In this document: positions 12,181 to 61,764 of the stretch, in pieces
How the letters are laid out: every line of letters starts with the position of its first letter
How positions within the stretch are numbered: position 1 is the first letter of the stretch
DNA from: Phymorhynchus buccinoides
Lineage: Eukaryota > Mollusca > Gastropoda > Neogastropoda > Raphitomidae
DNA: 64,000 nt
NCBI GenBank assembly: GCA_017654935.2
Contig: CM065690.1
Span: 372,443-436,442, forward strand
Reading direction: 5' to 3'
The notes under the pieces: generated by a model
What the model was told of the DNA's origin: nothing
Databases searched by the model: none
What the model saw: the letters and a program-made list of their open reading frames with translations, nothing else
Translations under genes and position numbers: made by a program

Positions 12181-13160
12181 AAATTCCCATCCAAGGAAAC
12201 TACAACAAAAAATCTATAAAAAAAACCACCTCCTGCCGTTATTGCGTTTCATCGCACATGATGTCCACTGCAGGCTGACTTGTGAATGCATGCTGACTTG
12301 TGAATGCAAGCTGACTTGTGAATGCATACAATGGAAGCTCCCTACTTTCTAAGCACTGAGAGTGCTAGCTGGGATTGGTTCTCTCTACGACATCTCACGA
12401 TACACACACCTTACAGCGCACATTTTTAACTTGTTCATGGAAAGGGAAGTTAGCAGCAGGAAACAGTTCTCCAAAAGGAAAATGTGGCTTTACACATAAG
12501 AGAGTGTACCGCTTTGTAGACTAAACAACAAGACAGACTCTTTTTATCAGCTGAATTCAGACCTGATTATCCCCATTTTTCTTTGGTGTACAATCAATGT
12601 CCAAAAAGTGTACAGAGTGAAAAAGTGTACAACTGTCACCACAGTCTTTTATTCAAACTACTACATCATTTAGAGAGTGCAAACACTTGTCAGAAAGGGG
12701 AATTTCTGCTTAAGGTAATTTAAAGCACTAATTTAAACTACTACATCATTTAGTACGCACGCGCACACGCACCTTGTCAGGAATTGGGAATTTCGGCTCA
12801 AGGCTCATTTAAAGCCACACTACACGTTCAAACTACTACACTCATTTACGCAACGCAGTTGCAGAACACATGTCAGAATGGGGGAATTCCTGCTCAAGGT
12901 CATATTAAAGCACTAATTTAAACATTGATAATGCACACACTAGCCTTACAAAATTACGACCATAGGAACGCATCTTACACGTAATGAAGACATTTTCCAC
13001 CATGGATCAAAAGGATATTCTGCATTTTTGCTACCAGGTCCCACTGAGTGATCCATGAATGCCTTCCCAGTAGAGGCCTGGGCATGTTTTATGACAAAAG
13101 TCAAGAAGAACAAGATTTACTGTATATAACTGTAAAGTCACCGCACCGTAACAGAACAGT
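12181..13160. repeat. Short tandem repeats in otherwise unassigned sequence
   Basis: An 18-bp unit (gctgacttgtgaatgca) occurs three times at about 12273-12330. A looser ~100-110 bp unit with actactacatcatttag, gtcagaa and ctcaaggt recurs about three times between 12640 and 12930. The remainder shows no gene or recognisable element. Confidence 0.6.
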
Positions 13161-27138: not shown

Positions 27139-27360
27139 TTGAGTTTTTGGTCCACATCTGTCTGTGTCTGCATGTTACTTTTGGTCCACTCTGTCTGTGT
27201 CTGTATGTTACTTTGGGTCCACTCTGTCTGTGTCTGTCACTTACTTTTTGGTCCACTCTGTCTGTGTCTGCATGTTACTTTTGGTCCACTCTGTCTGTGT
27301 CTGTATGTTACTTTGGGTCCACTCTGTCTGTGTCTGTATGTTACTTTACAATACAGTACA
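27139..27360. repeat. 33-bp minisatellite, left arm
   Basis: Six units containing ctgtctgtgtctg and gttactttgggtcc. Mirrors 61170-61375. It lies directly downstream of the COPB1 exon 3 donor when read on the - strand and carries no exon sequence. Confidence 0.9.
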
Positions 27361-27364
27361 CTAC

Positions 27365-27534
27365 CTGAAGATGGTGTAGATAGCGAGGACAGCATTTCTC
27401 CTGACGTAGGAGTGACGATGCTCTAAGCACTGTCTGATGGAAGGCATCAGAGGCTCCAATAGCTCTGGCTCCTTCAGTTTACACAGAAATCGCAGGGTGG
27501 AGCCCCGGATAAACTCATTGGGATGTTGAAGGTC
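27365..27534 (-). CDS. COPB1: COPB1 exon 3, left-arm copy
   Basis: A 170-bp exon on the - strand, with acceptor cccag (AG at 27536-27535) and donor gtagtg starting at 27364. It encodes the segment [16 protein letters not shown] to AVLAIYTIF plus two bases of the next codon. The translation is identical to that of the copy at 60990-61159. This HEAT-repeat region lies near the N-terminus of beta-COP. Whether this is a second allele, a duplicate or an assembly artefact cannot be decided here. Confidence 0.92.
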
Positions 27535-27790
27535 CTGGGACATAGCAGTAATAACAATATAAATAACATAGTCACACACAGATGATTTACACAGAAATCG
27601 CAGGGTGGAGCCCCGGATAAACTCATTGGGATGTTGAAGGTCCTGGGACATAGCACAGTAATATTGTAATAAACAATAGAATAACATAGTCACACACATG
27701 ATGATTTACACAGAAAAAAGCAGGTGGAGCCCCGGATGAACTCATTGGTGATGTTGAAGGTCCTGGACATAGCACAGTAATAACAATATA
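27535..27790 (-). repeat. Array of COPB1 exon 3 5'-end copies, left arm
   Basis: Two extra copies of the last intron bases, acceptor and first ~57 bp of exon 3 (to the codons for FLCK) lie upstream of the exon on the - strand, near 27586-27642 and 27712-27770. The more distal copy has several indels. Mirror of 60741-60989. Confidence 0.9.
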
Positions 27791-27895
27791 AGTGATAACA
27801 TAGTCCACAGAATATAATAACATGTAGTCAACACCAATATAAGAACATAATAACATAGTCACACAATATAAATAACATAGTCACCACAATCATAT
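27791..27895. repeat. 22-bp satellite remnant, left arm
   Basis: Degenerate units of ataacatagtcacacaatat on one side of the nested insertion. Equivalent to 60625-60740. Confidence 0.75.
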
Positions 27896-32210: not shown

Positions 32211-33476
32211 ATCAGTATCAGCACATTTAATACATCATTATCCCATGGTTATCCCATGATTAGATCCCACATATTTATCACAGGATTATCTCACCCTTCC
32301 AGGTAGGCAGTCACACACCAGGAATCATTGCCGGCATCAGCTTGCCGTCAGGGTGGTACTTAGGCACCACCTTATTTCATCATTATCCCAGCATTATCCC
32401 ATGATTATCTCACCTTCCTGTAGGCGTCACACACCAGGATCATTTCCTGCATCAGCTTGCCATCAGGGTGGTACTTAGGCACCACCATATTTCATCATTA
32501 TCCCAGCATTATCCCAGCATTATCTCACCTTCCTGTAGGCGTCACACACCAGGATCATTTCCTGCATCAGCTTGCCGTCAGGGTGGTACTTAGGCACCAC
32601 CATATTTCATCATTATCCCATGATTATCCCATGATTATCTCACCTTCCTGTAGGCGTCACACACCAGGATCATCTCCTGCATCAGCTTGCCGTCAGGGTG
32701 GTACTTAGGCACCACCATATTTCATCATTATCCCATGATTATCCCATGATTATCTCACCTTCCTGTAGGCGTCACACACCAGGATCATCTCCTGCATCAG
32801 CTTGCCGTCAGGGTGGTACTTAGGCACCACCATATTTCATCATTATCCCATGATTATCCCATGATTATCTCACCTTCCTGTAGGCGTCACACACCAGGAT
32901 CATTTCCTGCATCAGCTTGCCGTCAGGGTGGTACTTGGGCACCACCTTATTTCATCATTATCCCAGCATTATCCCAGCATTATCTCACCTTCCTGTAGGC
33001 GTCACACACCAGGATCATCTCCTGCATCAGCTTGCCGTCAGGGTGGTACTTAGGCACCACCATATTTCATCATTATCCCATGATTATCCCATGATTATCT
33101 CACCTTCCTGTAGGCGTCACACACCAGGATCATTTCCTGCATCAGCTTGCCGTCAGGGTGGTACTTAGGCACCACCTTATTTCATCATTATCCCAGCATT
33201 ATCTCATCATTATCCCAGCATTATCTCACCTTCCTGTAGGCGTCACACACCAGGATCATTTCCTGCATCAGCTTGCCATCAGGGTGGTACTTAGGCACCA
33301 CCATATTTCATCATTATCCCAGCATTATCCCATCATTATCCCATGATTATCTCACCTTCCTGTAGGCGTCACACACCAGGATCATTTCCTGCATCAGCTT
33401 GCCGTCAGGGTGGTACTTAGGCACCACCATATTTCATCATTATCCCAGCATTATGATTATCCCATGATTATCTCAC
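32211..33476 (-). repeat. Array of COPB1 exon 2 3'-end copies, left arm
   Basis: About ten units of ~115-125 bp, each with the last ~71 bp of exon 2 (encoding [10 protein letters not shown] or a variant, to CDAYRK) and the donor gtgag plus about 40 bp of intron (repeats of gataatcatg). Mirror of 55125-56330. Open frames on the + strand here are antisense by-products. Confidence 0.92.
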
Positions 33477-33739
33477 CTTTCTCTTTGTTTTTTTATTGTT
33501 GTTGGCTTCCACAACAGCGATCATCTCCTGCATCAGCTATGCCTTCAGGGTGGTACTTGGCCCCACACCTCCCAGAAGACCAGCAGCAGCTTCTTGATGG
33601 TGTGTTCCTGCAGCGGCATGACGAAGCGAATGACCGTCATCAGCAGGGACGTCATCTTCTCTCCGTTCAGCATCATCTGGATCACCTTTAAGTCGAGAGC
33701 ACTTCTCAGAGATGATTCGTTAGTGTGTTCTCCTTTTCT
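33477..33739 (-). pseudogene. COPB1: COPB1 exon 2, left-arm copy, damaged
   Basis: On the - strand the exon starts after an acceptor at 33741-33740 and shows the central part [20 protein letters not shown] intact. Near its start (about 33680-33735) it has inserted and deleted bases that change the frame. At its end the codons for [12 protein letters not shown] are frameshifted, and the terminal CDAYRK segment is replaced by unrelated sequence (about 33485-33515). It is 263 bp against 230 bp for the intact exon at 54895-55124. Either a poor consensus or a non-functional duplicate would explain this. Confidence 0.8.
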
Positions 33740-34770
33740 CTGAACATGAATCGTAGAGAGTGTGACATTTAGCATCAGTGTCAGGCATAAAGACGTCATC
33801 TTCTCTCTGTTCAGCATCATCTGGATCACCTTCTTCAGAGCTTCGATCTTCGTTCGTGTGTCTCCTTTTTCTGAAAGTAGAAAGATGTGGGTGAAAGAGA
33901 CAGAGAGACATAAAGAGGAATGGAGAGACAGACAGAGAGAAACAGGGACGTACAGACCAATGGTTCCCACCCACCAATCTTTTTTTGTTTTTTTCCCCCC
34001 ACCCCCCCCTCTTTTTCCCCCGTTCAGCATCATCTGAATCACCTTCTTCAGTGCCCCAATCTCTGTGCATGTGTCCCCGTTCTCTGAAAATAGAGAGAAT
34101 AAAGAGACAGACAGAGACAGACATGCCATCTTCTCCCTGTTCAGCATCATCTGAATCACCTTCATCAGTGCCCCAATCTCTGTGCATGTGTCCCCGTTCT
34201 CTGAAAATAGAGAGAATAAAGAGACAGACAGAGACAGACATGCCATCTTCTCCCTGTTCAGCATCATCTGAATCACCTTCATCAGTGCCCCAATCTCTGT
34301 GCATGTGTCCCCGTTCTCTGAAAATAGAGAGAATAAAGAGACAGACACAACCGTCTGTTATGTATTACAGACCTCCCATCTTTCTCCACTGCCCCCAAAA
34401 ACCTCAAAAAAAAGAAAAACAACAAGACTTGCTCTGTTCAGCATCACTGATCACCTTCTTCTGCCAATGATGTATGTGTTGCACATGGGACTGGTACCCA
34501 GGTCCTGTGTAACATAGAGAGTATATAAAGAGACCAGAACAGAATGACATAGAGCAGGACATGACATCTGTTCTCCCTGTGTCAGAACATCTCTCTTGAA
34601 TCACCTTCTTCAGTGCCCCAATCTCTGTGCATCAGTTTGTATATACGGCCGTTCTCTGAAAAATTTAGACAACAACACAATAAAGAGACAGACATGCCGT
34701 CTTCTTCCTGTCAAGCCAAATCTGGATCCCTTTCAGTGCTTTGATCTTTGTTTGAGCTTTTCCCTTCTCT
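33740..34770 (-). repeat. Array of COPB1 exon 2 5'-end copies, left arm
   Basis: Units of ~117-125 bp hold, on the - strand, a polypyrimidine tract, the acceptor ttttcag and the first ~75 bp of exon 2 (reading [15 protein letters not shown]). Mirror of 54026-54894. An N-terminal older copy (AQTKIKALKG) is near 34665-34765. The distal copies near 34400-34620 are heavily damaged. Confidence 0.92.
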
Positions 34771-40130: not shown

Positions 40131-40366
40131 TGTAACCTAGGTCCTGTCTGAGCTGCATTTCCGATGGCGATTCGCTGTCAGAGGGTGTGTTGATCAGTGT
40201 AATGATGAAGACATTTGATATACTTTATAATATCTTATAATTACTGACCTAGATCCTGTCTGAGCTGCATTTCCGATGGCGATTCGCTGTCAGAGGTCGT
40301 ATTGATCAGAGCATGTAATGATGAAGACATTGGATATATACTTTATAATATCTTATAATCACTGAC
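40131..40366 (-). repeat. Copies of COPB1 exon 1 3' end, left arm
   Basis: Two tandem copies of the last ~60 bp of exon 1 (encoding SDSESPSEMQLRQDL) with donor and about 50 bp of intron. Mirror of 48755-48990. Confidence 0.92.
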
Positions 40367-40460
40367 CCAGGTCCTGTCTGAGCTGCATTTCCGATGGCGG
40401 TTCGCTGTCGGAGGGCGTGTTGATCAGGGTGTAGCATGGCTGGTCCACCAGTGAGGCCAT
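40367..40460 (-). CDS. COPB1: COPB1 exon 1 (start codon), left-arm copy
   Basis: On the - strand the start codon at 40460 begins MASLVDQPCYTLINTPSDSE and the exon ends after the codons for RQDL plus one base, before donor gtcagt. Identical in translation to 48661-48754. See that entry for the reasoning on start and junction. Confidence 0.9.
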
Positions 40461-41113
40461 CTTGTCCTGAGGCCACACAACCCAACAAAACAAATCAACC
40501 AACATGATCCACAGGGCGCAGCATGGCTGGTCCACCAGTGAGGCCACACAGTCCTGAGGCCACACAACCCAACAAAACAAATCAACCAACATGATCCACA
40601 GGGCGCAGCATGGCTGGTCCACCAGTGAGGCCACACAGTCCTGAGGCCACACAACCCAACAAAACAAATCAACCAACATGATCCACAGGGTGTAGCATGG
40701 CTGGTCCACCAGTGAGGCCACACAGTCCTGAGGCCACACAACCCAACAAAACAAATCAACCAACATGATCCACAGGGCGCAGCATGGCTGGTCCACCAGT
40801 GAGGCCACACAGTCCTGAGGCCACACAAAACAAATCAACCAACATGATCCACAGGGCGCAGCATGGCTGGTCCACCAGTGAGGTCATCTTGTCCTGAGGC
40901 CACACAGTCCAACAAAACAAATCAACCAACATGATCCACAGGGCGCAGCATGGCTGGTCCACCAGTGAGGCCACACAGTCCTGAGGCCACACAGTCCAAC
41001 AAAACAAATCAACCAACATGATCCACAGGGCGCAGCATGGCTGGTCCACCAGTGAGGCCACACAGTCCTGAGGCCACACAACCCAACAAAACAAATCAAC
41101 CAACATGATCCAC
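40461..41113 (-). repeat. Array of COPB1 exon 1 5'-end copies, left arm
   Basis: Seven units of ~85 bp with the first ~45 bp of exon 1 (LVDQPC coding) and the preceding intron or UTR. Mirror of 48007-48660. Confidence 0.93.
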
Positions 41114-41450
41114 ACTTCAAACAATTTAAGACAAAAAACCCACAAGTCCAGTATAAGTCGAGTATAATAATAATACCATATATTTCTTACTATAAGTATG
41201 AGTTGGTACTTTTTTTCCCCAGACTGAGATCCATACGCCTTATTCATGACTAATAAATAGTAAGAAAATATAATACCAAAATCTGAATTTTGCGTACCAT
41301 TTGGGGGATGAGCCTTATAGGTGTGACTTAAAGTCCAAAAATAGGGTAGTAGTAATCATATACAGTGAGCTAGCACCCACCAGTCATAGTACTGGGTAAA
41401 TTATAGTCGGGTGAAGCCTAGGGCTTGACATTATTTTTTATAGTCACTAC
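41114..41450. other. Unassigned spacer, left arm
   Basis: Promoter or 5' UTR of COPB1 could lie here when read on the - strand, but no core promoter element could be asserted. Mirror of 47670-48006. Confidence 0.35.
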
Positions 41451-43854: not shown

Positions 43855-44354
43855 NNNNNNNNNNNNNNNNNNNNNNNNNNNNNNNNNNNNNNNNNNNNNN
43901 NNNNNNNNNNNNNNNNNNNNNNNNNNNNNNNNNNNNNNNNNNNNNNNNNNNNNNNNNNNNNNNNNNNNNNNNNNNNNNNNNNNNNNNNNNNNNNNNNNNN
44001 NNNNNNNNNNNNNNNNNNNNNNNNNNNNNNNNNNNNNNNNNNNNNNNNNNNNNNNNNNNNNNNNNNNNNNNNNNNNNNNNNNNNNNNNNNNNNNNNNNNN
44101 NNNNNNNNNNNNNNNNNNNNNNNNNNNNNNNNNNNNNNNNNNNNNNNNNNNNNNNNNNNNNNNNNNNNNNNNNNNNNNNNNNNNNNNNNNNNNNNNNNNN
44201 NNNNNNNNNNNNNNNNNNNNNNNNNNNNNNNNNNNNNNNNNNNNNNNNNNNNNNNNNNNNNNNNNNNNNNNNNNNNNNNNNNNNNNNNNNNNNNNNNNNN
44301 NNNNNNNNNNNNNNNNNNNNNNNNNNNNNNNNNNNNNNNNNNNNNNNNNNNNNN
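43855..44354. other. Assembly gap (500 N), palindrome centre
   Basis: Exactly 500 N. Sequences on both sides are reverse complements of each other, starting with the 51-bp array. That is what a head-to-head join of duplicate contigs would give. Confidence 0.99.
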
Positions 44355-48006: not shown

Positions 48007-48660
48007 TGTGGATCATGTTGGTTGATTTGTTTTGTTGGGTTGTGTGGCCTCAGGACTGTGTGGCCTCACTGGTGGACCAGCCATGCTGCGCCCTGTGGAT
48101 CATGTTGGTTGATTTGTTTTGTTGGGTTGTGTGGCCTCAGGACTGTGTGGCCTCACTGGTGGACCAGCCATGCTGCGCCCTGTGGATCATGTTGGTTGAT
48201 TTGTTTTGTTGGACTGTGTGGCCTCAGGACAAGATGACCTCACTGGTGGACCAGCCATGCTGCGCCCTGTGGATCATGTTGGTTGATTTGTTTTGTGTGG
48301 CCTCAGGACTGTGTGGCCTCACTGGTGGACCAGCCATGCTGCGCCCTGTGGATCATGTTGGTTGATTTGTTTTGTTGGGTTGTGTGGCCTCAGGACTGTG
48401 TGGCCTCACTGGTGGACCAGCCATGCTACACCCTGTGGATCATGTTGGTTGATTTGTTTTGTTGGGTTGTGTGGCCTCAGGACTGTGTGGCCTCACTGGT
48501 GGACCAGCCATGCTGCGCCCTGTGGATCATGTTGGTTGATTTGTTTTGTTGGGTTGTGTGGCCTCAGGACTGTGTGGCCTCACTGGTGGACCAGCCATGC
48601 TGCGCCCTGTGGATCATGTTGGTTGATTTGTTTTGTTGGGTTGTGTGGCCTCAGGACAAG
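48007..48660 (+). repeat. Array of COPB1 exon 1 5'-end copies
   Basis: Seven tandem units of ~85 bp. Each has gtggcctcaggactgtgtgg, then ctcactggtggaccagccat (the first coding bases of exon 1), then gtggatcatgttggttgatt of the preceding spacer. Only the unit near 48230 keeps an ATG at the equivalent of the start codon. The others have gtg there. The frames through the array read DCVASLVDQPCCALW and are not independent genes. Confidence 0.94.
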
Positions 48661-48754
48661 ATGGCCTCACTGGTGGACCAGCCATGCTACACCCTGATCA
48701 ACACGCCCTCCGACAGCGAACCGCCATCGGAAATGCAGCTCAGACAGGACCTGG
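48661..48754 (+). CDS. COPB1: COPB1 (beta-COP) exon 1, start codon
   Basis: ATG at 48661 stands in a good context (aagATGG). The 94-bp coding exon encodes 31 residues (MASLVDQPCYTLINTPSDSE to QLRQDL) plus one base. CYTLIN.P.DSEPPSE is the conserved beta-COP N-terminus. The donor is gtcagt at 48755. The leftover G plus AG from exon 2 make the codon for E, giving DLEKGD as in other animals. A possible acceptor tcag eight bases or so before the ATG suggests a preceding non-coding exon. It is flanked by tandem copies of its start (upstream) and of its end (downstream). Reading past the donor gives an immediate stop (GGT CAG TGA). Confidence 0.95.
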
Positions 48755-48990
48755 GTCAGTGATTATAAGATATTATAAAGTATATATCCAATGTCTTCAT
48801 CATTACACGTTCTGATCAATACGACCTCTGACAGCGAATCGCCATCAGAAATGCAGCTCAGACAGGATCTAGGTCAGTAATTATAAGATATTATAAAGTA
48901 TATCAAATGTCTTCATCATTACACTGATCAACACACCCTCTGACAGCGAATCGCCATCGGAAATGCAGCTCAGACAGGACCTAGGTTACA
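48755..48990 (+). repeat. Copies of COPB1 exon 1 3' end
   Basis: Two further copies of the last ~60 bp of exon 1 (each beginning ctgatcaa and encoding SDSESPSEMQLRQDL) lie at about 48810-48873 and 48923-48984. The first is followed by a copy of the donor and of the intron start (attataagatattataaagt). The second ends in ggttacag where the donor is lost. Confidence 0.94.
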
Positions 48991-49215
48991 GTTAGTGACT
49001 ACAGCTTAATACTTTTAAGTCGACACATGCTTAAGTCGACTTTTGCGTAAGTCGACGGATTTATCATTTCCCAGCCAAAAGTGCTCTTTAAAAGACTTTG
49101 ATAACAACGGATATCTCGACAACATATAACTCTACATTCGTTTATATCAACGAGATCTTTTCTAAACGTCAAACGGATAAGTCGACTTCCTGACTTCCTG
49201 ACTTTTGTTTTTTTC
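48991..49215. mobile_element. Pogo/Tigger-like terminus, right arm
   Basis: Begins tacagcttaatacttttaag and has several gtcgac-centred subunits. Inverted relative to the end at 53584-53885. Could be one end of a ~4.9-kb TA-flanked element whose interior is filled with LINE fragments and minisatellites. Confidence 0.4.
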
Positions 49216-50029
49216 CCCTGACTTCCTGACTTAAGTCACACTAGTCTTGTTCTATTTTGATCTGTCTCTTTTTGTATGTGTGCACGTGTATGTGTGTGTG
49301 TGCGCGCATACATGTGTGTGTGTGTGTGTGTGTGTGCCTGTGTGTGACGTTGGTTTTTGTCATTATGCTGACAGTTTCCTTGTCGCGTGACGTCAACAGT
49401 TTCCGGTGGGAGAAAATAAGGACGTTCGCCTACCGTAAAATACCGAGTTTAAGCCCCCACCCCCACCATCCTTTGCACGGTTTGAGGCCCCAAAAAGGGG
49501 GGTGGGCTTATACACGGTATTTGCCCTTGTGGTCGAAACAAAATTGTAAAAGGAAAGATACACAGCCTGTAACATCCCCAATGCCCGGTGAATCCATTCT
49601 GGACATCTAAAAACGCATTTGACTTTTTTTGTTAAAGACCCCCAGATCTGAAGAAATTTCTTTTCAGAAATGTTTTGTGATTACTGAGATACATTGTTTT
49701 GCATAAACCACATCACGCAGTTTCCATTGGGTATCCACACATCGAGCATCACAGACCGAAGGGGGGCTTTTACAAGGTATTTCACCCTTTGTATAGTGTT
49801 TGCCTCCAAATGCGGTGCATCACGCTTCGCCTAATTACACTTCGCCTAACAACATCTCGCCTAATGACATCTCACCTAATTACACTTGGCCTAATCATTA
49901 TCGAGTGTTTATCATATGTAACACTTCGCCTAAAATTTCCAACAAGGTCTTACTGTTAGCCCTTAATACAAATCGATGAAAGTATACAAATATCAGCACA
50001 TTGATCAAAACAATGGTACATCACTATAT
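49216..50029. other. Mixed spacer with GT repeat, right arm
   Basis: Contains a GT tract at 49275-49345, short cttcgcctaattaca repeats near 49825-49890, and no gene. Confidence 0.45.
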
Positions 50030-50173
50030 GAAGGCTAAGAGAGAGAAAGAGAGAGAGACCGTCACAGAGAGAGAGAGAGAGAAACCGTCACAGAGAGAAA
50101 GAGAGAGAAACCGTCACAGAGAGAGAGAGAGAGAAACCGTCACAGAGAGAGAGAGAGAGAGAAACCGTCACAG

Positions 50174-50221
<48 letters not shown>

Positions 50222-50335
50222 AACCGTCACAGAGAGAGAGAGAGAGAAACCGTCACAGAGAGAGAGAGAGAGAGAAACCGTCACAGAGAGAAAGAGAGAG
50301 AAACCGTCACAGAGAGAGAGAGAGAGAGAGAGAGA
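50030..50335. repeat. GA-rich minisatellite, right arm
   Basis: About ten units of gaaaccgtcacagagagag with variable GA runs. It abuts the LINE tail and may be an expansion of it. Confidence 0.93.
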
Positions 50336-51229
50336 AAACGAAAACAAAATTTTATTTAACCAGGGAACATGAGATAAGCAAGTTACATGCTTTTTTCCAC
50401 CCAGCCCTGGGGGAAAATAAAGTAAATCAAACAAGAAAGCTAAATAATATATGTACATGCAGAAATGAGAAGAAAAGGGAGGGAGGATGGGGGGAAGAGG
50501 CACAGAGGGGGATAAGGATGGGGACATTTTGGAATTTAAAGTACAGGAAAAAAACAAAAAAAGTCACATCATGCAAACATAAAATCAGCAAAGGATAACA
50601 CTCCTCATCATTATCATTATCAGTAATAGTATGATAGTAATAAACAAATCAAGTTATATCATACAAAAGTATCAAACAATTATGTTATCACATATTATAT
50701 CAAAATCAGCAATCATAGATATATCATTGAAGTAACTTAATATTTATCCACATCTTCTGATGAAGGCATTGTATACCCAATAATAGAATGGTTATCTGGA
50801 TACAGTTGACATGTTTTCTTTTAATCTCTGAAATAGAATATTTTGATACGCGTTTTTGAAGGAAGTAATGCTGCTTTTCTGCTTAAGATTAGTTGTTAAG
50901 GAATTCCAAAGAGTACCACCTGAGTATGTTAAGCTTGTTTTGAAAAGATCAGTTCTAGGTTTTGGAATAACAATATTGTTAGTATATCTAGATTGGTTGA
51001 TTGGAAACTTTTTAATTAATGTTGGAGGTGCAAAACCATTGATTATTCTAAACATCATGACAGCTTTGTTGTATTGAAGTTTGTCTGTAAGAGGTAACAA
51101 TTGTATTGTGATATAGGAGGACTGCTTTAAGGGCTCGCTTATGAACAAGAGAGAGAGAGAGACTGTCAGGCTGATTAGGCGAGTTGTGCTAATCATTTTT
51201 AGGCGGAATGTTACGCTTGGGTTTTTCAT
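50336..51229 (-). mobile_element. 5'-truncated LINE with C-terminal ORF, right arm
   Basis: On the - strand, a 145-codon frame encodes the ORF2 C-terminus: KQSSYITIQLLPLTDKLQ, NKAVMMFRIINGFAPPTLI, RTDLFKTSLTYSGGTLWNSL, KSSITSFKNAYQ. This order is the usual ending of LINE ORF2 proteins. A 3' UTR and a tail ending aataaaattttgttttc lie at 50336-50800. No endonuclease or RT core is present. Confidence 0.82.
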
Positions 51230-51479
51230 GACATCCAGAAGTTACTGCCGGCACGGAAGGTCGAGATCAAAGGATTAGGCGAAGTGTAATTAGGCGAAGT
51301 GTAATTAGGCGAAGTGAGGCACACCCTCCAAATGTGGGGTGGGCCTATACTACTAGATGGGCTAATACTCTGTATATTACCGTACGTACTTAAGAGATCT
51401 TTTCTTTTAGACACTGATTTTACCGTACGTACTTAAGAGAGATCTTTTCTTTTAGACACTGAGTTTTGAATAGAAAAAT
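51230..51479. other. Spacer with short direct repeats
   Basis: Includes two copies of taccgtacgtacttaagaga (51378 and 51421 area) and aggcgaagtgtaatt repeats. No gene. Confidence 0.5.
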
Positions 51480-52055
51480 AGATATTATTCCTGAGGTTGA
51501 AAAGAATCCCTCAAGGAAAAGGAAATGAATTGTGGATGAGTTCAATATTGCACATAGCACAGAGTCCACCATAGTAAAATAGATGTTATTCCTGAGGTTG
51601 AAAAGAATCCCTCAAGGAAAAGGAAATGAATTGTGGATGAGTTCAATATTGCACATAGCACAGAGTCCACCATAGTGAAATAGATGTTATTCCTGAGGTT
51701 GAAAAGAATCCCTCAAGGAAAAGGAAATGAATTGTGGATGAGTTCAATATTGCACATAGCACAGAGTCCACCATAGTGAAATAGATGTTATTCCTGAGGT
51801 TGAAAAGAATCCCTCAAGGAAAAGGAAATGAATTGTGGATGAGTTCAATATTGCACATAGCACAGAGTCCACCATAGTGAAATAGATGTTATTCCTGAGG
51901 TTGAAAAGAATCCCTCAAGGAAAAGGAAATGAATTGTGGATGAGTTCAATATTGCACATAGCACAGAGTCCACCATAGTGAAATAGATGTTATTCCTGAG
52001 GTTGAAAAGAATCCCTCAAGGAAAAGGAAATGAATTGTGGATGAGTTCAATATCA
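51480..52055. repeat. 101-bp minisatellite, right arm
   Basis: Nearly six near-identical 101-bp units with gaattgtggatgagttcaat. Mirror of 36916-37495. Confidence 0.95.
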
Positions 52056-52400
52056 ATGTCAAGCATTTAAGATGAAAGGTTTAGACATGAAATAGGTATC
52101 AGTAATTCAATATCCTCTATGCACCTTAGCTTAGAAAAAACCACCACATAGCTTATTTTACGACAGCAGTGCAAAAGTTGAAAAAGTGTAGTTGATACAA
52201 TAAAATCACGTACTCAAGGTCAAAGGTCAAGGTCAACAAGGCATACTGAGGGGCACATCAGTGTCATTAAAATAGTAGCACACAAGTTTGAAGTGATCCT
52301 ATGACATGGTTCTTAAGATAATTGCCAGAAAAAGGACACAAGGACACAAAAGATCGTGATATCCCTCTCCGCAGAGTGGCTGGGGGCTAATAAATACTAA
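52056..52400. repeat. Dispersed repeat, right arm
   Basis: Reverse complement of 36586-36915, with aaggtcaaggtcaacaaggc and the end ggctgggggctaata. No coding capacity. Confidence 0.5.
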
Positions 52401-53105
52401 AATAGGATAAAGTTCACATAGTTTGAATCATTTCAGCAAATTATACTATTTTTCTTACAAACAAAAGCATTAGATACGAAATAATTACGGTAAGTGCATG
52501 TTTTTACAGTTCTCTAGAGTCCTTTGGCGGACATTTTGAATATTACGTCATAACTCAAAATGCCCAACATTTACAACTTGGCTTCCAACGGATTTGGATT
52601 CAGCACCCTCAAATCATTTAGATCGACATAAAAACCTAATATATATCAAAACAAGATCAAATTTAATTTCACCTGGACTATTAGCAAAAACTAATGGCTT
52701 TTCAATATTACTGAAATAAGTCGTGATTTATTTGAAAAACTGAAGTGACAAAATTATTTGATGGCTTGAAATAAAGCCGTATGAAAAATTCTGAAGCAAT
52801 TTGACTTGAAATGACCCAACAAATCAGTTTTTTGCTTCTCCTGTGAAGTGACGTCTTTCGAATTACATCTGTATTGCATGCGGGCGGCGATATAATAATA
52901 TTTCACATATAGCATAAAGAATGGGAAATAAAAAATACACAAACACCCAAAGACGGTCAGACAGACACAGAATTACACACATATACGCGCGCGAGCGCGC
53001 ACACACTCACGTACATTCACATGCGGACACACACTCACACATATGTGCTCACCAAGCGCAGACGTTCACTCTCAGACATGCACACACCAAGTCATGAAGG
53101 AAGGG
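52401..53105. other. Unassigned AT-rich sequence with CA tract, right arm
   Basis: A CA-rich tract lies at 52965-53085. No gene. Confidence 0.4.
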
Positions 53106-53512
53106 ATTAGTAGTTATTTAGGAAACGGATGAGTTTTGAGATGGCGTTTGAATGTGGGCAGAGAGGATGAGTATCTGAGAGAGCGAGGCAACTGATTCCA
53201 AGTAACAGAAGCTTGATAGGAGAAAGAGCGTTGACCATAGGTTTTAGTGCGGACAGTGGGGATACAATAGAGACGGGTGTCAGATGAGGAACGCAGAGCT
53301 CGAGACGGTGTGTAGAGATGTAGCAGATCAGTGAGGTATTCAGGACAGGAAGACTCGACAGATTTGTAGCAGAGAGAGGCAATCTTGTAGGATATTCTTT
53401 GCTGAACAGGGAGCCAGTGGAGAGAACAGAGCAATGGAGTTATATGGTCATATTTAGAAGAGCGGAAGATGAGACGGGCAGCACGTATACATGTACACAC
53501 ACACTCACACAC
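53106..53512 (-). mobile_element. LINE C-terminal fragment, right arm
   Basis: A 132-codon - strand frame reads RLIFRSSKYDHITPLLCSLH, then WLPVQQRISYKIASLCYKS, CPEYLTDLLHLYTPSRALRS, TYGQRSFSYQASVTWNQLPR. This is the standard CR1/L2-type ORF2 C-terminus. A parallel frame overlaps but has no homology. Only this end of the element is present. Confidence 0.85.
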
Positions 53513-53583
53513 CTACCTACCTACCTACCTACCTACCCCCTACACACACACTCGCACGCACGCACGAACACACACACACGAAG
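53513..53583. repeat. CTAC and CA microsatellite
   Basis: Short tract of ctac and ca repeats between the LINE fragment and the pogo-like end. Confidence 0.85.
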
Positions 53584-53885
53584 AGTATAAGTCGACATTA
53601 TCTTCTGAAAGTGTCTGTGAAGTCGAGATATCCGACTGACGGATAAGTCGACATTTTTTTCTGAAAACGTCTATAAACTCGAGATATCCGACTGACGGAT
53701 AAGTCGACATTTTTTTTCTGAAAACGTCTATAAAGTCGAGATATCCGACATACCAGTCGACATTTTTTCCTAAAAACGTCTGTGAAGTCGAGATATCCGA
53801 CTGACGGATAAGTCGACTGACGCATAACTCGACATAAAATCCATTGCCGCTGGCACGTCGACTTAAGCATATTCGACTGTATAAG
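53584..53885. mobile_element. Pogo/Tigger-like terminus with gtcgac subrepeats, right arm
   Basis: About four ~57-60 bp subunits containing gtcgacattttt and gtcgagatatccgactgacg. It ends cttaagcatattcgactgta beside a TA. Mirror of 34906-35270. Confidence 0.5.
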
Positions 53886-54025
53886 ATAGATACACAGATC
53901 TGACTGCAGAGTATATATTTCATTTCTTCTTTGTTGCACTTTTGTGTTCTTCTCTCACACCAACCCTCTCTTTTTTCTTGAAAACATTCTCTCATTCCTA
54001 ACCCACTTTCTCTCTGTTCTTGCAG

Positions 54026-54894
54026 AGAAGGGAAAAGCTCAAACAAAGATCAAAGCACTGAAAGGGATCCAGATTTGGCTTGACAGGAAGAAGACGGCAT
54101 GTCTGTCTCTTTATTCTCTCTATTTTCAGAGAACGGGGACACATGCACAGAGATTGGGGCACTGAAGAAGGTGATTCAGATGATGCTGAACAGGGAGAAG
54201 ATGGCATGTCTGTCTCTGTCTCTGTCTGTCTCTTTATTCTCTCTATTTTCAGAGAACGGGGACACATGCACAGAGATTGGGGCACTGAAGAAGGTGATTC
54301 AGATGATGCTGAACAGGGAGAAGATGGCATGTCTGTCTCTGTCTCTGTCTCTTTATTCTCTCTATTTTCAGAGAACGGGGACACATGCACAGAGATTGGG
54401 GCACTGAAGAAGGTGATTCAGATGATGCTGAACAGGGAGAAGATGGCATGTCTGTCTCTGTCTGTCTCTTTATTCTCTCTATTTTCAGAGAACGGGGACA
54501 CATGCACAGAGATTGGGGCACTGATGAAGGTGATTCAGATGATGCTGAACAGGGAGAAGATGGCATGTCTGTCTCTGTCTGTCTCTTTATTCTCTCTATT
54601 TTCAGAGAACGGGGACACATGCACAGAGATTGGGGCACTGAAGAAGGTGATTCAGATGATGCTGAACGGAGAGAAGATGACATGTCTGTACGTCCCTGTT
54701 TCTCTCTGTCTGTCTCTCCATTCCTCTTTATGTCTCTCTGTCTCTTTCACCCACATCTTTCTACTTTCAGAAAAAGGAGACACACGAACGAAGATCGAAG
54801 CTCTGAAGAAGGTGATCCAGATGATGCTGAACAGAGAGAAGATGACGTCTTTATGCCTGACACTGATGCTAAATGTCACACTCTCTACTTTCAG
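54026..54894 (+). repeat. Array of COPB1 exon 2 5'-end copies
   Basis: Seven tandem copies precede the real exon. Each has a polypyrimidine tract and acceptor (ctctctattttcag) followed by the first ~75 bp of exon 2. Exon-copy starts are at 54026, 54130, 54253, 54372, 54489, 54606 and 54771. The first copy is old (KAQTKIKALKG), the next five read [12 protein letters not shown], and the last one (KRRHTNED in the shifted frame, [11 protein letters not shown] in frame) is nearly identical to the exon. Each copy lacks a donor, so none can act as a complete alternative exon. Confidence 0.95.
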
Positions 54895-55124
54895 AGAAAG
54901 GAGACACACGAACGAAGATCGAAGCTCTGAAGAAGGTGATCCAGATGATGCTGAACGGAGAGAAGATGACGTCCCTGCTGATGACGGTCATTCGCTTCGT
55001 CATGCCGCTGCAGGAACACACCATCAAGAAGCTGCTGCTGGTCTTCTGGGAGGTGGTGCCTAAGTACCACCCTGACGGCAAGCTGATGCAGGAGATGATC
55101 CTGGTGTGTGACGCCTACAGGAAG
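54895..55124 (+). CDS. COPB1: COPB1 (beta-COP) exon 2
   Basis: A 230-bp exon with acceptor ctactttcag (ending 54894) and donor gtgaga at 55125. It supplies AG of the split E codon, then 76 codons from [20 protein letters not shown] through [20 protein letters not shown] to [10 protein letters not shown]. This is the first HEAT-repeat region of beta-COP, with the usual [17 protein letters not shown] core. Junction phases to exons 1 and 3 are correct. It is flanked by tandem copies of its start (54026-54894) and of its end (55125-56330). Reading past the donor gives AAG GTG AGA TAA, an immediate stop. Confidence 0.96.
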
Positions 55125-56330
55125 GTGAGATAATCATGGGATAATCATAATGCTGGGATAATGATGAAATATGGTGGTGCCTAAGTACCACCCTGACGGC
55201 AAGCTGATGCAGGAAATGATCCTGGTGTGTGACGCCTACAGGAAGGTGAGATAATCATGGGATAATGATGGGATAATGCTGGGATAATGATGAAATATGG
55301 TGGTGCCTAAGTACCACCCTGACGGCAAGCTGATGCAGGAAATGATCCTGGTGTGTGACGCCTACAGGAAGGTGAGATAATCATGGGATAATGCTGGGAT
55401 AATGATGAAATAAGGTGGTGCCTAAGTACCACCCTGACGGCAAGCTGATGCAGGAAATGATCCTGGTGTGTGACGCCTACAGGAAGGTGAGATAATCATG
55501 GGATAATCATGGGATAATGATGAAATATGGTGGTGCCTAAGTACCACCCTGACGGCAAGCTGATGCAGGAAATGATCCTGGTGTGTGACGCCTACAGGAA
55601 GGTGAGATAATGCTGGGATAATGCTGGGATAATGATGAAATAAGGTGGTGCCCAAGTACCACCCTGACGGCAAGCTGATGCAGGAGATGATCCTGGTGTG
55701 TGACGCCTACAGGAAGGTGAGATAATCATGGGATAATCATGGGATAATGATGAAATATGGTGGTGCCTAAGTACCACCCTGACGGCAAGCTGATGCAGGA
55801 GATGATCCTGGTGTGTGACGCCTACAGGAAGGTGAGATAATCATGGGATAATCATGGGATAATGATGAAATATGGTGGTGCCTAAGTACCACCCTGACGG
55901 CAAGCTGATGCAGGAAATGATCCTGGTGTGTGACGCCTACAGGAAGGTGAGATAATGCTGGGATAATGCTGGGATAATGATGAAATATGGTGGTGCCTAA
56001 GTACCACCCTGACGGCAAGCTGATGCAGGAAATGATCCTGGTGTGTGACGCCTACAGGAAGGTGAGATAATGCTGGGATAATGCTGGGATAATGATGAAA
56101 TATGGTGGTGCCTAAGTACCACCCTGATGGCAAGCTGATGCAGGAAATGATCCTGGTGTGTGACGCCTACAGGAAGGTGAGATAATCATGGGATAATGCT
56201 GGGATAATGATGAAATAAGGTGGTGCCTAAATACCACCCTGACGGCAAGCTGATGCAGGAAATGATCCTGGTGTGTGACGCCTACAGGAAGGTGAGATAA
56301 TCATGGGATAATGATGAGATAATCATGGGA
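55125..56330 (+). repeat. Array of COPB1 exon 2 3'-end copies
   Basis: Ten tandem copies of ~113-126 bp follow the exon. Each carries the last ~71 bp of exon 2 (starting gtggtgcctaagtaccaccc), the intact donor aggaaggtgag and about 40 bp of intron made of gataatcatgg and gataatgctgg pieces. Copies are almost identical (for example aggaaatgat for aggagatgat). Exon-like ends fall near 55245, 55371 and onward to about 56296. Confidence 0.96.
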
Positions 56331-56389
56331 TAACCATGGGATAATGATGTATTAAATGTGCTGATACTGATGCATTATAATATTATTCT

Positions 56390-56465
56390 TGAACTTTCAA
56401 CATCCCAATGAGTTTATCCCTGACCTCATGTTGATATTCTGGTGTAAACTGAAGGAACCAGATCA
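56390..56465 (+). repeat. Decayed copy of COPB1 exon 3 5' half
   Basis: Contains ttcaacatcccaatgagttt and gtgtaaactgaaggaaccag from exon 3, separated by a diverged middle. The acceptor is lost (ttgaac in place of cccaggac). It is an older copy, 4.5 kb upstream of the exon, and continues directly into the 22-bp satellite. Confidence 0.82.
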
Positions 56466-57170
56466 TCTGTGTGAGACTGTTATTTATATTGTGTGACTAT
56501 GTTATTTATATTGTGTGACTATGTTATTTATATTGTGTGACTATGTTATTTATATTGTGTGACTATGTTATTTATATTGTGTGACTGTATGTTATTTATA
56601 TTGTGTGACTATGTTATTTATTTTGTGTGACTGTATGTTATTTATATTGTGTGACTATGTTATTTATATTGTGTGACAACATGTTATTTATATTGTGTGA
56701 CTATGTTATTTATATTGTGTGACTATGTTATTTATATTGTGTGACAGTTATTTATATTGTGTGACTATGTTATTTATATTGTGTGACTATGTTATTTATA
56801 TTGTGTGACTATGTTATTTATATTGTGTGACTATGTTATTTATATTGTGTGACTATGTTATTTATATTGTGTGACTATGTTATTTATATTGTGTGACTAT
56901 GTTATTTATATTGTGTGACTATGTTATTTATATTGTGTGACTATGTTATTTATATTGTGTGACTATGTTATTTATATTGTGTGACTATGTTATTTATATT
57001 GTGTGACTATGTTATTTATATTGTGTGACTATGTTATTTATATTGTGTGACTATGTTATTTATATTGTGTGACTATGTTATTTATATTGTGTGACTATGT
57101 TATTTATATTGTGTGACTATGTTATTTATATTGTGTGACAGTTATTTATATTGTGTGACTATGTTATTTA
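56466..57170. repeat. 22-bp satellite, right arm
   Basis: About 32 units of tatgttatttatattgtgtg plus ac. The same motif is the intronic part of the exon-3 boundary units at 60764-60989, so this satellite appears to be an expansion of that intron segment. Confidence 0.95.
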
Positions 57171-57601
57171 TATGCACCATACTGGTAACACCTAGTAACG
57201 GTAACGGCAAGTACTGTGTAACGCTGAGTACAGCAAATTTGAAGCGATTCGGTTAAGAAACGGCGGAGTTATTATAAGGCCCCGTTTCCCGTTGGCGCTG
57301 CTCTGAGAGTGACGCGCTCTCCCGATTCTCTTCCAATTTGCTGCTAGGCTTTGCCCGGGCCATAGCAAGCCTGACAGCAAATTTGAATCAATTCGGTTAA
57401 GAAACGGCGGAGTTATGCGTGTGAAAAGGTGAAGCGGCGTATAGCGCGCGCGTTTCGCGCATTTGCGAAACCGCGCCAAATGACACGGCCGCACCCCGGT
57501 TGCCGTTGCCATCGCCGCGTTAGGGCTCACAGCAAATTTGAAGCGATTCGGTCGAAAAACGGCGGAGTTATAAGGCCCTTTTCGTGTTTCAGACACACAC
57601 A

Positions 57602-57697
<96 letters not shown>

Positions 57698-58169
57698 GGA
57701 GAGAGTTGGCTTTTTACTATATGACTAAACCAGTAAAGTCCCGATTTTTTAATAATACAGATACGTGTATTATGTAGTCTCATCCCGGTGTAATCGCCAC
57801 TGCCCCCCCCCCCCCAACCCCCCACCAACCCTCCCCCCCCCACACCACCCACCACCCCACCGGTTTGGCACAGGGATCGTCACCGTCCCCCGTCATCTAC
57901 CTTCCAAATTCGAAGAAGAAGTACCTAGCGAGACAGACAGACAGAAAGACAGACAAAGAGCAAAGAGGACAACTGCTGTTCCGGTTGGATGATGTGAACA
58001 TTTGTTTAACGTCCTCCGCCCCGCAGGCAGCAGAGACAGACAGACAGCCAGACAGACAGACAGAGAGAGAGAGAGACAGAGATTAACCGAGAAATGTAGG
58101 GGGGTTGGCACATCTTGACCTATACCAGAAAGTGTTTCATCATGATTTAAACTTTGACCGCGCGCACCG

Positions 58170-58200
<31 letters not shown>

Positions 58201-59268
58201 TATCCCCCTGCCTAACATCACTTTTTTTTCGACTCAGGCTATAGAGAGAGAGTTGTAGTTCTTCTTCTTTCTTCGTTATTCTTCTTCTTCGATCGTTCAG
58301 ACAGTTTCCTGTCAATTATGAGCGTAGATGCGTCATGCTGCTGTTATGCGCCTAAGTAAGCATAATTAGTCCCAGCATGTCTGACTGGCAGTGAAAGATC
58401 TTTCCTTTGACCTTCTTTGAGCCAGTCTCAAACACACGAAAGTGAAACTTTCGGTTTTACATTTCCAAGAAGAAGGCAGCATTTCACCTTCCAAGAAAAT
58501 GGATCACAAACGTGTAAGGTCTTTCATTTCAGGGGGGGTTTCACTTTGACCTCGCGCACGCAGAGAGAGAGAGAAGAGAGAGAGAGAGAGTACACTTCTT
58601 CTTCTTCTTCGTCTTCTAAGTTCTTGTTCTTCGGATCGTTCAGGCATGTTTCTGTCAATTACGAACGTAGATGCATCATGCTGCTGTTATGCGCCTAAGT
58701 AAGAATAATTAGGCCCAGCATGTCTGACTTCGGCTAGAGGAAATCTTTTTGAAAGTATTTCTTGAAAAAAGGCAGGAGAATTTCTGTCAATTACGAACGT
58801 AGATGCATCATGCTGCTGTTATGCACCTAAGTAAGAATAATTAGGCCCAGCATGTCTGACTTTGGCTAGAGGAAATCTTTTTGAAAGTATTTCTTGAAAA
58901 AAGGCAGGAGAATGGACCGGAAAGGCAGAACGATAGTAGATAACAGCATGCAAAGGGAAAAGGCAGAATCAAAGAGACTGACAGATTAGAGGTAGTTATA
59001 AGCACAGAACTTCCAGAAGGTGGGGGAACTATTTGTACGGAAGACATCCCCCCTACCTGTATCCACGGGGGGGGGGGGGGGGGGTGTGTACCACCCCTAT
59101 ATTCACTCTATGCGCTTAACAACAACAAAATTAAAAAGCAAGAAATTCAACAACAAAACAAATAATCGCTCACACACATGCTAATAGGCATACACATACA
59201 CACACCACCCCCACCCACGCAGGCACGCACATATACATATACACACACACACACACTCGCGCAACACA

Positions 59269-59313
<45 letters not shown>

Positions 59314-60624
59314 CTCCTCCCTACACCTACCCCCTCCCCACATTTACTTGCTCTGGGACTTATTTGCAAGATGTGCCCCACCCCCCCTACCTATCTCGGT
59401 TAATTCTATTTTTCCGTTATTGCCTTTCCTACCATACATAAAGCTGTATTTTAGGAACATTTTTAGCTAATAACCTTTTTGGAATACTAACCCTAGCCCT
59501 AGCCCTAAACCTAACCCTACCCCCCACCCTATAAGACGGAAAAAACGCAACGAACCACAACTGTGACAAATCGCGGTGTACTGCAGTACATAGTGGGGGG
59601 TAGGGTTAGGTTTAGGGTTAGGGCTAGGGTTAGTATTCCAAAAAGGTTATTAGCTAAAAATGTTCCTAAAATACAGCTTTATGTATGGTAAGAAAGGCAA
59701 AAACAGAAAAATAGAATTAACCGAGAAATGCAGGGGGGGGTGGGGGGGTGGCACATCTTTACCTTTACTGGTCTTTCTTTTCAGGGGGGGGGGGCACATC
59801 TTTACCTATCACAGAAAGAGTGTTTCATAATCATAGTTCGGCCTTTCGGCATGTGGGGCATTTGTAAATACAAAGATTGTGGGAATAATACTGGAGGCAA
59901 TGCCCGGAGGCAGTGCTAAACCAGTGAAGTCCCGATTTTTTAATAATACAGATATGTGTAGTGTCATCCCCTTGTAATCTCCACTGCCTCCCCCCCACCA
60001 TCCCTCCGCCCATCCACCCACCCCCTACCCCACCCATAACCAGCTGGCTGACCTACTGATCACCCCAGCACTTGTGAACCATGGTCTCCTGCCCCCCCTT
60101 TAATAACAGCACGTTTGGACAGATGTCGTTTGGCCTAGTGAGCAAAACTGTAAATTGGTGCATTTTCGCGCGCATTTATGAACAGATGCTGTTCAACATT
60201 TCCTGCCATGCTTTGCCCGGGTCATAGCAAGCCTGACAGCAAATTTGAGGCGATTCGGTTAAGAAACGGCGGAGTTATTTGTGAAAAGGTGAAGCGGCAT
60301 GTAGCGCGGGCGGTTCTGAACCGATTCACTTCTGGTTTGGCACACGGATCGACCCCAGCCCCGGTCATCTTCCTGCCAAATTGGAAGGCAATCGGCCCAG
60401 AAACGCCGGAGATACGGGCGCCGAGAGGCCGGCGGATGCGCGTTTCGCGCATTTGCGAAACCGCGCAAATGACACGGCCGCCTCGGTTGCCGTTGCCATC
60501 GCCCCGTGAGGGCTCACAGCAAATTTGAAGCGATTCAGTCGAAAAACGGCGGAGTTATAAGGCCCGTTTCGTGTTTCAGACAGACAGACACACAGACACA
60601 CACACGGACAGTTGGCTTTTTACT
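57171..60624. mobile_element. Nested ~3.4-kb insertion inside the 22-bp satellite
   Basis: The satellite stops at 57170 and resumes near 60625. The block is built of repeated modules. One is the gattcggttaagaaacggcg segment (57245, 57390, 60253). Another is caaatttgaagcgattcggt before cggagttataaggccc (57530, 60520). A third is agtcccgattttttaataat (57738, 59930). A fourth is a ~135-bp segment with tttctgtcaattacgaacgt present twice (58650, 58785). It also holds the fold-back element, long C or G runs and CA tracts. No protein-coding gene is present, so it looks like nested non-autonomous elements. Confidence 0.7.
59390..59740. mobile_element. Fold-back element with telomere-like arms, right arm
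   Basis: Same hairpin as at 28870-29225: arms of ~130 bp from cggttaattctatttttccg, loop with ctgcagtacatag, and CCCTAA/TTAGGG hexamers next to the loop. The loop differs in orientation from the left-arm copy by the mirror relation. Confidence 0.8.
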
Positions 60625-60763
60625 ATATGATTGTGTGACTATGTTATTTATATTGTGTGACAGTTATTTATATTGTGTGACTATGTTATTTATATTGTGT
60701 GACTATGTTATTTATATTGTGTGACTATGTTATTTATATTGTTATTACTGTGCTATGTCCCAG
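60625..60763. repeat. 22-bp satellite, resumed
   Basis: A few further 22-bp units lead into the exon-3 boundary array. Confidence 0.9.
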
Positions 60764-60989
60764 GACCTTCAACATCCCAATGAGTTCATCCGGGGCTCCA
60801 CCCTGCTTTTTCTGTGTAAATCATCTGTGTGTGACTATGTTATTTATATTGTTATTACAATATTACTGTGCTATGTCCCAGGACCTTCAACATCCCAATG
60901 AGTTTATCCGGGGCTCCACCCTGCGATTTCTGTGTAAATCATCTGTGTGTGACTATGTTATTTATATTGTTATTACTGCTATGTCCCAG
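60764..60989 (+). repeat. Copies of COPB1 exon 3 5' end
   Basis: Two copies of the first ~57 bp of exon 3, starting at 60764 and 60882. Each is preceded by ctatgtcccag and followed by tcatctgtgtgtgactatg of intron. Both read [14 protein letters not shown] and end after FLCK. Neither has a donor. Confidence 0.95.
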
Positions 60990-61159
60990 GACCTTCAACA
61001 TCCCAATGAGTTTATCCGGGGCTCCACCCTGCGATTTCTGTGTAAACTGAAGGAGCCAGAGCTATTGGAGCCTCTGATGCCTTCCATCAGACAGTGCTTA
61101 GAGCATCGTCACTCCTACGTCAGGAGAAATGCTGTCCTCGCTATCTACACCATCTTCAG
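60990..61159 (+). CDS. COPB1: COPB1 (beta-COP) exon 3
   Basis: A 170-bp exon following acceptor gctatgtcccag and ending before donor gtagtg at 61160. It encodes 56 codons ([20 protein letters not shown], then [20 protein letters not shown] and AVLAIYTIF) plus AG of the codon for R. Exon 4 begins with the missing G and NFDFLIP, as in other animals. The sequence is among the most conserved of beta-COP. Retention of the intron would give TTC AGG TAG, an immediate stop. Exon 4 of this contig would lie beyond 64000. Confidence 0.96.
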
Positions 61160-61164: not shown

Positions 61165-61375
61165 GTACTGTATTGTAAAGTAACATACAGACACAGACAG
61201 AGTGGACCCAAAGTAACATACAGACACAGACAGAGTGGACCCAAAGTAACATACAGACACAGACAGAGTGGACCCAAAGTAACATACAGACACAGACAGA
61301 GTGGACCCAAAGTAACATACAGACACAGACAGAGTGGACCAAAAGTAACATGCAGACACAGACAGAGTGGACCAA
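61165..61375. repeat. 33-bp minisatellite, right arm
   Basis: Six units of aagtaacatacagacacagac followed by agagtggaccc, right after the exon 3 donor. It has no exon content. Confidence 0.94.
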
Positions 61376-61764
61376 AACTCAACTCAACTCAACTCAACTC
61401 AAACAACTTTATTATCTCTTAGAGAGAAATTTAGTGTGGTGATGTCTGCGATGGACACAGTTAAAACAAGACACATTATAATATACATTGAAAACAAGAT
61501 GTGCTTCTAAAACATCAATGACAATACCATTACATCAAAACACACATCATGATAATTATCACTTGAAAGCAAAACAGCAGTGCTTTCACCGCCAGCCATA
61601 TTTCAGCCACAAATGTCCATTAAATTAACCTGGTTAGAGAGCAAAATCCATCTGCAGTATTGGGGATTCTTCTGTGGCATATAATATACAATAAGGTCTA
61701 TCCTTACTTCCCAAGACTAAGACAACAGGGTCTTTGGATAATAGACCCCAATTTGATGCCTTTT
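61376..61764 (-). mobile_element. LINE 3' UTR with pentamer tail, right arm
   Basis: Reverse complement of 26741-27138: (CTCAA)n tail, then caactttattatctctta. Non-coding 3' end of a LINE on the - strand. Confidence 0.6.

Follow-up and report, generated by a model that had tools for sequence, protein, structure and literature searches.

The 64-kb window analysed here (positions 372,443 to 436,442 of CM065690.1; coordinates below count from its first letter) contains the 5′ region of COPB1, the gene of the coatomer beta chain, and most COPB1 splice junctions that can be read in it lie within tandem copies of themselves. Joining 48661-48754, 54895-55124 and 60990-61159 yields an uninterrupted protein of 164 residues that matches coatomer beta chains in PDB (E 7e-85) and the Adaptin_N family in Pfam (E 1.3e-44). 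In a numbering of our own, these segments belong to exon 1 (48655..48754, forward strand, start codon at 48661, acceptor before 48655 and donor after 48754), exon 2 (54895..55124, forward) and exon 3 (60990..61159, forward). Two further exons were located with a Mytilus COPB1 fragment. Exon 4 lies on the reverse strand at 11737..11852, in an error-rich contig and with its frame broken as assembled, and exon 5 lies on the forward strand of the first contig at 2802..2894. An earlier sequence-only reading had placed all five exons within 48007-61159, where only exons 1 to 3 are found. A short exon probably precedes exon 1, because the Littorina protein P0001, which starts with MPAEDKMAS, extends upstream of the DKMAS motif that it shares with exon 1. 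The protein search was restricted to proteins of about 90-287 residues. Among the best 120 of 987 matches, those listed, Littorina saxatilis ranks first by E-value (88%), followed by Lingula (84%), and the Mytilus fragment matches at 84% over 85% of the query. Few of these 120 carry an organism name, and amphioxus is not among the names given. Both Littorina saxatilis and Nucella lapillus, which occur among the protein matches of the window, belong to the Caenogastropoda.

Eight of the ten readable COPB1 splice junctions sit in repeat arrays, the unit of which combines an intron end, the junction and 42-75 bp of exon. Affected are the acceptors of exons 1 to 4 and the donors of exons 1, 2, 4 and 5. 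All eight arrays listed by the sequence-only reading thus exist, and a self-comparison of the locus, in the form of a blind self-BLAST mask, marks the identical eight junctions. This tally comprises the ten junctions of the five placeable exons of one gene; the sequence of each junction served as the query for its copies, and copy counts include the functional copy. Copy numbers span 3 to 11, not two to ten as first counted, and the units reported by Tandem Repeats Finder measure 68, 82, 87, 115, 117 and about 118 bp.

At exon 1, the acceptor array (48007..48696, forward) holds eight copies of an 87-bp unit made of at most 47 bp of intron end with its AG and the first 42 bp of the exon. The donor array (48694..48986, forward) holds three exon-end copies of an about 118-bp unit, in which the last ~61 bp of the exon are followed by the GT and ~50 bp of intron, the third copy having only ~6 bp of intron. 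Exon 2 is preceded by eight acceptor copies (54012..54969, forward), five of them at a spacing of 117-123 bp, one at 54752 and the functional one at 54895, and is followed by a donor array (55052..56333, forward) of eleven copies of a 115-bp unit comprising the last 73 bp of the exon, the GT and about 36-42 bp of intron. Three acceptor copies including the functional one, spaced about 108-118 bp, are found at exon 3 (60718..61051, forward), and a decayed older copy of the exon start, reduced to its exon part, lies ~4.5 kb upstream of exon 3 (56393..56462, forward). Next to the latter, an intron stretch that also precedes the exon 3 acceptor forms a 22-bp array (56478..57173, forward; 696 bp, 821 bp in the other copy of the locus), which would represent a secondary amplification. 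On the reverse strand, the exon 4 acceptor array (11801..12186) has six copies of a 68-bp unit, five of which align across the AG junction. Six copies of the exon 4 donor (9879..11786, reverse), five of them aligned across the junction, lie at irregular distances of ~90 bp to >1 kb among GT-rich stretches, the second and third being separated by about 1.2 kb. The exon 5 donor array (2828..3765, forward) contains eleven copies of an 82-bp unit, ten of which align across the junction.

The arrays do not reach every edge. The statement that every exon is flanked by copies of its own boundary holds in that each exon has at least one such edge; it fails at the exon 3 donor and the exon 5 acceptor, for which the own-sequence scan found no junction copy. 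Two intronic arrays free of a junction serve as counter-examples at exactly these edges, a 69-bp array that stops 9 bp before exon 5 (1465..2792, forward) and a 33-bp array that begins 17 bp after exon 3 (61177..61377, forward). Likewise, the reported absence of duplication from exon middles applies to exon 2 (~bases 80-156) and exon 3 (~bases 72-170) and not to exon 1, the middle of which is duplicated because its two arrays meet inside the exon at 48694-48696.

Copies at one and the same junction have diverged to different degrees. At the exon 2 acceptor, the identity of the exon part to that of the functional copy is 0.79 in the outermost copy (54012), 0.81-0.85 in five others and 0.97 in the copy at 54752, and the copies of exon 3 show 0.88 (the decayed one), 0.95 and 1.0. 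The corresponding values are 0.82-0.91 for the exon 5 donor decoys, 0.85-0.93 for the exon 1 acceptor decoys and 0.97-1.0 for the exon 2 donor decoys. Graded identities of this kind show that the acceptors of exons 2 and 3 were duplicated repeatedly, in agreement with the recurrence at junctions proposed earlier. In minisatellites, an existing repeat undergoes further rounds by slippage or unequal exchange without any special target.

Only the innermost copy of an array continues into the remainder of its exon. Where the copies have diverged, namely at the exon 2 and exon 3 acceptors and the exon 5 donor, this functional copy is also the one nearest to Mytilus COPB1. For exon 2, it matches at 78% over 77 residues compared with 43-70% over 24-35 residues for the acceptor decoys; for exon 3, at 86% compared with 58% for the decayed copy; and for exon 5, at 82% compared with 56-63% for the decoys. 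The consequences of decoy use were predicted for exons 1, 2, 3 and 5. An early stop is predicted for all ten donor decoys of exon 2, all ten of exon 5, the seven acceptor decoys of the exon 2 array (leaving out five exon-internal TTCAGA sites), the single exon 1 donor decoy tested of the two that exist, and one of the two acceptor decoys of exon 3, and all seven exon 1 acceptor decoys would gain upstream ATGs. As the decoys thus mostly lead to early stops or upstream ATGs, the cell would have to pick the innermost acceptor-donor pair, which is the choice predicted by exon definition.

The additional sites could instead constitute a functional splicing device, selected because they offer alternative ends of exons or compensate for mutated splice sites. 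Among the decoys aligned across a junction, AG is kept in 20/20 and GT in 24/25; one donor copy of exon 4 has CT instead. Moreover, the nearest upstream copy of the exon 3 acceptor (60882-60989) is open and in frame and would add 36 residues if used. Nevertheless, nearly all tested decoys would introduce upstream ATGs or a premature stop, and in the diverged ones coding positions have changed. Retention of AG and GT is expected in recently amplified copies and, since most decoys are of this kind, was rejected as a sign of selection. We therefore regard a selected splicing device as most improbable.

The 64 kb are composed of three contigs, a (1-9010), b (9511-43854) and c (44355-64000), with one 500-N gap between contigs a and b (9011-9510) and another, likewise without strand, at 43855..44354. 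The latter lies approximately at the centre of a large inverted duplication comprising the 5′ region of COPB1, in which ~24142-43839 is the reverse complement of ~44714-64000, and the start of the gene is present twice, head-to-head across this gap. Most likely, the inverted duplication represents two haplotypes of one locus that were joined head to head by the scaffolder. The two copies of the locus are 89-95% identical in the four longest distinct BLAST blocks. Over their full lengths, six pairs of blocks with repeats agree at 98.9-100% of the ungapped positions; the lengths are 980/980 bp (exon 1 arrays), 578/578 bp, 1148/1129 bp (exon 2 donor array), 696/821 bp (22-bp array), 459/462 bp and 265/266 bp, contig b being error-rich. 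On the reverse strand of that contig, the second copy of the exon 1 arrays occupies 40135..41114 (99.5% identical, equal length), that of exon 2 with its nearest acceptor copies and donor array 32275..33909 (partly error-rich), and that of exon 3 with its acceptor copies 27348..27809. The error-rich stretches of contig b, for instance in its copies of exon 2 and exon 4, look like uncorrected or poorly polished long reads.

Given a partly error-rich contig and two copies of the locus joined head-to-head over an N gap, one may ask whether long-read errors or misplaced reads created false tandem copies at exon edges. Such an artefact would have to account for exon 1-3 arrays that are present in both copies of the locus, for a graded divergence among copies from 0.79 to 1.0, and for repeats that cover less of the error-rich contig (0.35-0.39) than of contig c (0.48). 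With the arrays of exons 1 to 3 present on two contigs, in part at slightly different lengths, an artefact of assembly has very little to recommend it. The arrays of exons 4 and 5 each occur on one contig.

Under the name of mirages, repeated exon boundaries were reportedly described in amphioxus Adh3 by Canestro et al. in 2002, and somatic instability is said to have been observed there. As far as the accessible text of the sources goes, the amphioxus globins BflGb6 and BflGb9 show minisatellite-like duplication of 5′ and 3′ exon boundaries (PMC3087553), with a copy number that varies between haplotypes and regular splicing that the authors report to be undisturbed (PMC3087553, PMC3902484). 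Imperfect 60-bp and 108-bp repeats over the splice sites of PGBD5 were likened to mirages, and troponin C was cited in the same context (PMC3902484). The COPB1 arrays share their defining features: the unit spans the boundary, the copies are tandem and of minisatellite size, and both acceptor and donor edges are involved. As in the amphioxus mirages, tandem copies of intron-exon boundaries at 5′ or 3′ edges have in many cases kept their AG or GT, and unit sizes of 68-118 bp in seven of the eight COPB1 arrays compare with 10-160 bp in amphioxus. Hence, the opinion that no named class exists for such arrays has to be revised in view of the amphioxus descriptions available (PMC3087553, PMC3902484). 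The two cases differ in that amphioxus is a cephalochordate, whereas the COPB1 case comes from what two protein matches indicate to be a mollusc, concerns eight of ten edges of one gene and is known here from sequence only.

Other known systems are less similar. In human segmental-duplication genes, variable-number minisatellite units also extend across an exon-intron boundary; as described in the part of the work available, these repeats can modify transcripts and give rise to new introns in young paralogs (PMC2812944). The COPB1 repeats, in contrast, lie beside exons of a conserved gene, and their use would in most cases disrupt the reading frame. AG and GT sites within genes are likewise copied in intron gain by tandem genomic duplication; in the accessible account of that model, however, an exon-internal AGGT is duplicated to give a new intron (PMC3443670), whereas in COPB1 existing junctions are duplicated outward. 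For exons 1 to 3, intron gain of this type was not seen; the joins read as continuous COPB1 with no added intron. Intronic minisatellites occur in other invertebrates, for instance a length-variable 27-bp array in intron 3 of an abalone TSSK1-like gene (PMC6905558) and an array in intron 1 of an earthworm metallothionein gene (PMC12783039). Unlike in COPB1, no exon edge is described for either unit in the accessible portions of these reports (PMC6905558, PMC12783039).

We consider it probable that the arrays are mirages in the COPB1 gene of a probable caenogastropod, that is, tandem duplications that chanced to span exon-intron junctions and began without targeting. Slippage, template switching or end joining would generate short tandem duplications throughout the gene. 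A first duplicate would then amplify and re-duplicate by slippage or unequal exchange, leaving old and young copies at one junction. The spliceosome would take the innermost acceptor-donor pair, a step that is partly shown, and with splicing of the innermost pair, outward duplications across an edge would be nearly harmless. Edge-spanning duplications outside the exon would therefore be close to neutral, whereas those within an exon would be purged by selection, and edges would appear special though untargeted. In the window, 21 of 30 array rows carry no junction and the region is dense in tandem arrays; this abundance of repeats combined with the asymmetry between edges and middles would produce repeated edges and unrepeated middles without targeting.

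Whether the junctions are enriched in repeats depends on the null model chosen: their number is unremarkable by repeat span and enriched by repeat unit. Repeat span was defined by self-BLAST as all positions flanked on each side by 15 bp or more of repeat and covers a fraction of 0.475 in contig c, 0.80 in contig a and 0.35 in the unique part of contig b (9511-24141). When the set of exons was slid round each stretch, 5.0-5.3 junctions were expected compared with eight of ten observed (P 0.10-0.12), under a count in which an array of 30 copies contributes 30 times. Without exon 4, that is for exons 1, 2, 3 and 5 with six of eight junctions affected, P is 0.25-0.30; within this set, contig c alone (5/6) gives 0.09-0.12 and contig a alone (1/2, 1.6 expected) gives 0.82-0.83. 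The contention that edges are favoured beyond random repeat birth is therefore not carried by the span null, in a region where repeats cover 35-80%, and finds its backing in the unit null.

Several results weigh against an origin without targeting or against the splicing behaviour that it presupposes. When each array is counted as one unit, only 0.9-1.2 junctions are expected, with P values of 1.9e-7 to 1.6e-6 that presume all intron sequence to be equally old. P amounts to 4.1e-5 to 3.1e-4 with half of the intron old enough and is still 0.007 to 0.043 with only a quarter, the old fraction being an assumption and array ends and unit lengths being set by hand. It is from the sequence, moreover, that we infer the use of the innermost sites. 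Identity to the functional copy is 0.97-1.0 for the donor decoys of exon 2 and for the nearest acceptor decoy of exon 3, a range in which divergence cannot tell which site is used, and the in-frame decoy at 60882 may be used. Without exon 4, the unit null at a margin of 0 or 10 bp yields P values of 2.5e-5 to 0.18. With and without exon 4, rows of the unit null demanding 20 bp on both sides were set aside because the intron part is shorter in the exon 4 acceptor copies and in some of the exon 5 donor copies. Since the hypothesis arose on COPB1 itself, even a small P is a lead and not a proof.

The enrichment by unit would be explained by a junction-directed process, in which R-loops, splicing-coupled structures, nucleosome edges or repair raise the birth of tandem duplications at exon edges. 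The unit-null P values (1.9e-7 to 0.043 for eight of ten junctions) and the several duplication ages at the exon 2 and exon 3 acceptors speak for it, as does the occurrence of amphioxus mirages in several genes, according to the accessible text (PMC3087553, PMC3902484). We hold such a process to be unlikely, however, given the span null and the two intronic arrays that miss the junction by 17 bp at the exon 3 donor and by 9 bp at the exon 5 acceptor. In addition, the evidence comes from a single gene that was picked after the pattern had been noticed, and an existing repeat would re-duplicate without any target. Base composition does not single out the junction arrays either. Their GC content (0.39-0.54 in seven of eight) falls within the range of 13 other arrays (0.23-0.55); exons have a GC content of 0.50-0.60 compared with 0.43 in contigs a and c, and GC may have an effect on array birth. 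No sign in the sequence was found in favour of the transcription- or splicing-linked process that had been suggested for this locus. The broader proposal, that tandem duplications across Bilateria, as in amphioxus and now in a mollusc, are born preferentially at the exon-intron junctions of transcribed genes, seeded by a process linked to splicing or transcription, appears to us rather doubtful.

Apparent enrichment might also result from age and detectability, if exons and the adjoining intron have stayed unbroken for longer than any other sequence of the gene and decayed copies can still be recognised by their conserved exon part. Duplications at edges would then be both more frequent and more visible than those in introns with transposons. 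Consistent with this, P climbs to 0.007-0.043 when no more than a quarter of the intron is taken to be of sufficient age, and the decayed copies at 54012 and 56393 were recognised mainly through their exon part. The intron between exons 3 and 4 contains a reverse transcriptase of the LINE (long interspersed nuclear element) type and other transposon-like frames. Yet the copies at 54012 and 56393 are not needed for the tally, as younger copies exist at both junctions, and the old-intron fraction is an assumed figure. As the main source of the pattern, age and detectability seem improbable to us, and chance duplication across exon edges is the reading that we retain.

The transposon-like sequences of the window include a broken LINE-type reverse transcriptase in an intron on contig b (17454-18089; Pfam RVT_1, E 4.3e-17), and no Pfam family was found for two other transposon-like pieces. 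For the frame at 21166-21879, one of 572 length-limited candidates matched at E <=0.001, a Nucella lapillus protein (68%). The same frame contains a two-copy internal duplication of ~91 bp at 21816-21980 (reverse), the first copy of which is followed by telomere-like GTTAGG repeats; this, too, may be a duplication of the edge type. At 19501-20654 and 20832-21102 (reverse), open repeats of 39 bp and 45 bp encode repeated SKTAPASTPSS and TENYEGIVYVPSTLT peptides, and a 104-bp array at 13706-14949 carries a telomere-like TAACCC run in most of its units. On contig a, a 75-bp array of at least 4.7 kb (4302-9010) runs into the assembly gap. A role of this array or of the 57-bp array at 4009-4284 as the next COPB1 exon edge was not supported; the Mytilus fragment, which extends ~28 residues beyond exon 5, has no match in either array. 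A scan of the window against Rfam gave no match at gathering thresholds.

Among the best matches listed from open-licence literature, no mirage from a mollusc was found. The class is already known as mirages, whose occurrence in this phylum is probably new. Mirages at eight of ten edges of a conserved mollusc gene suggest that such arrays originate in repeat-prone genomes generally. For gene prediction and assembly, arrays of this type are a trap. For the splicing machinery, they amount to a strict natural test of exon definition, in which up to ten near-identical sites would be ignored beside the true one.

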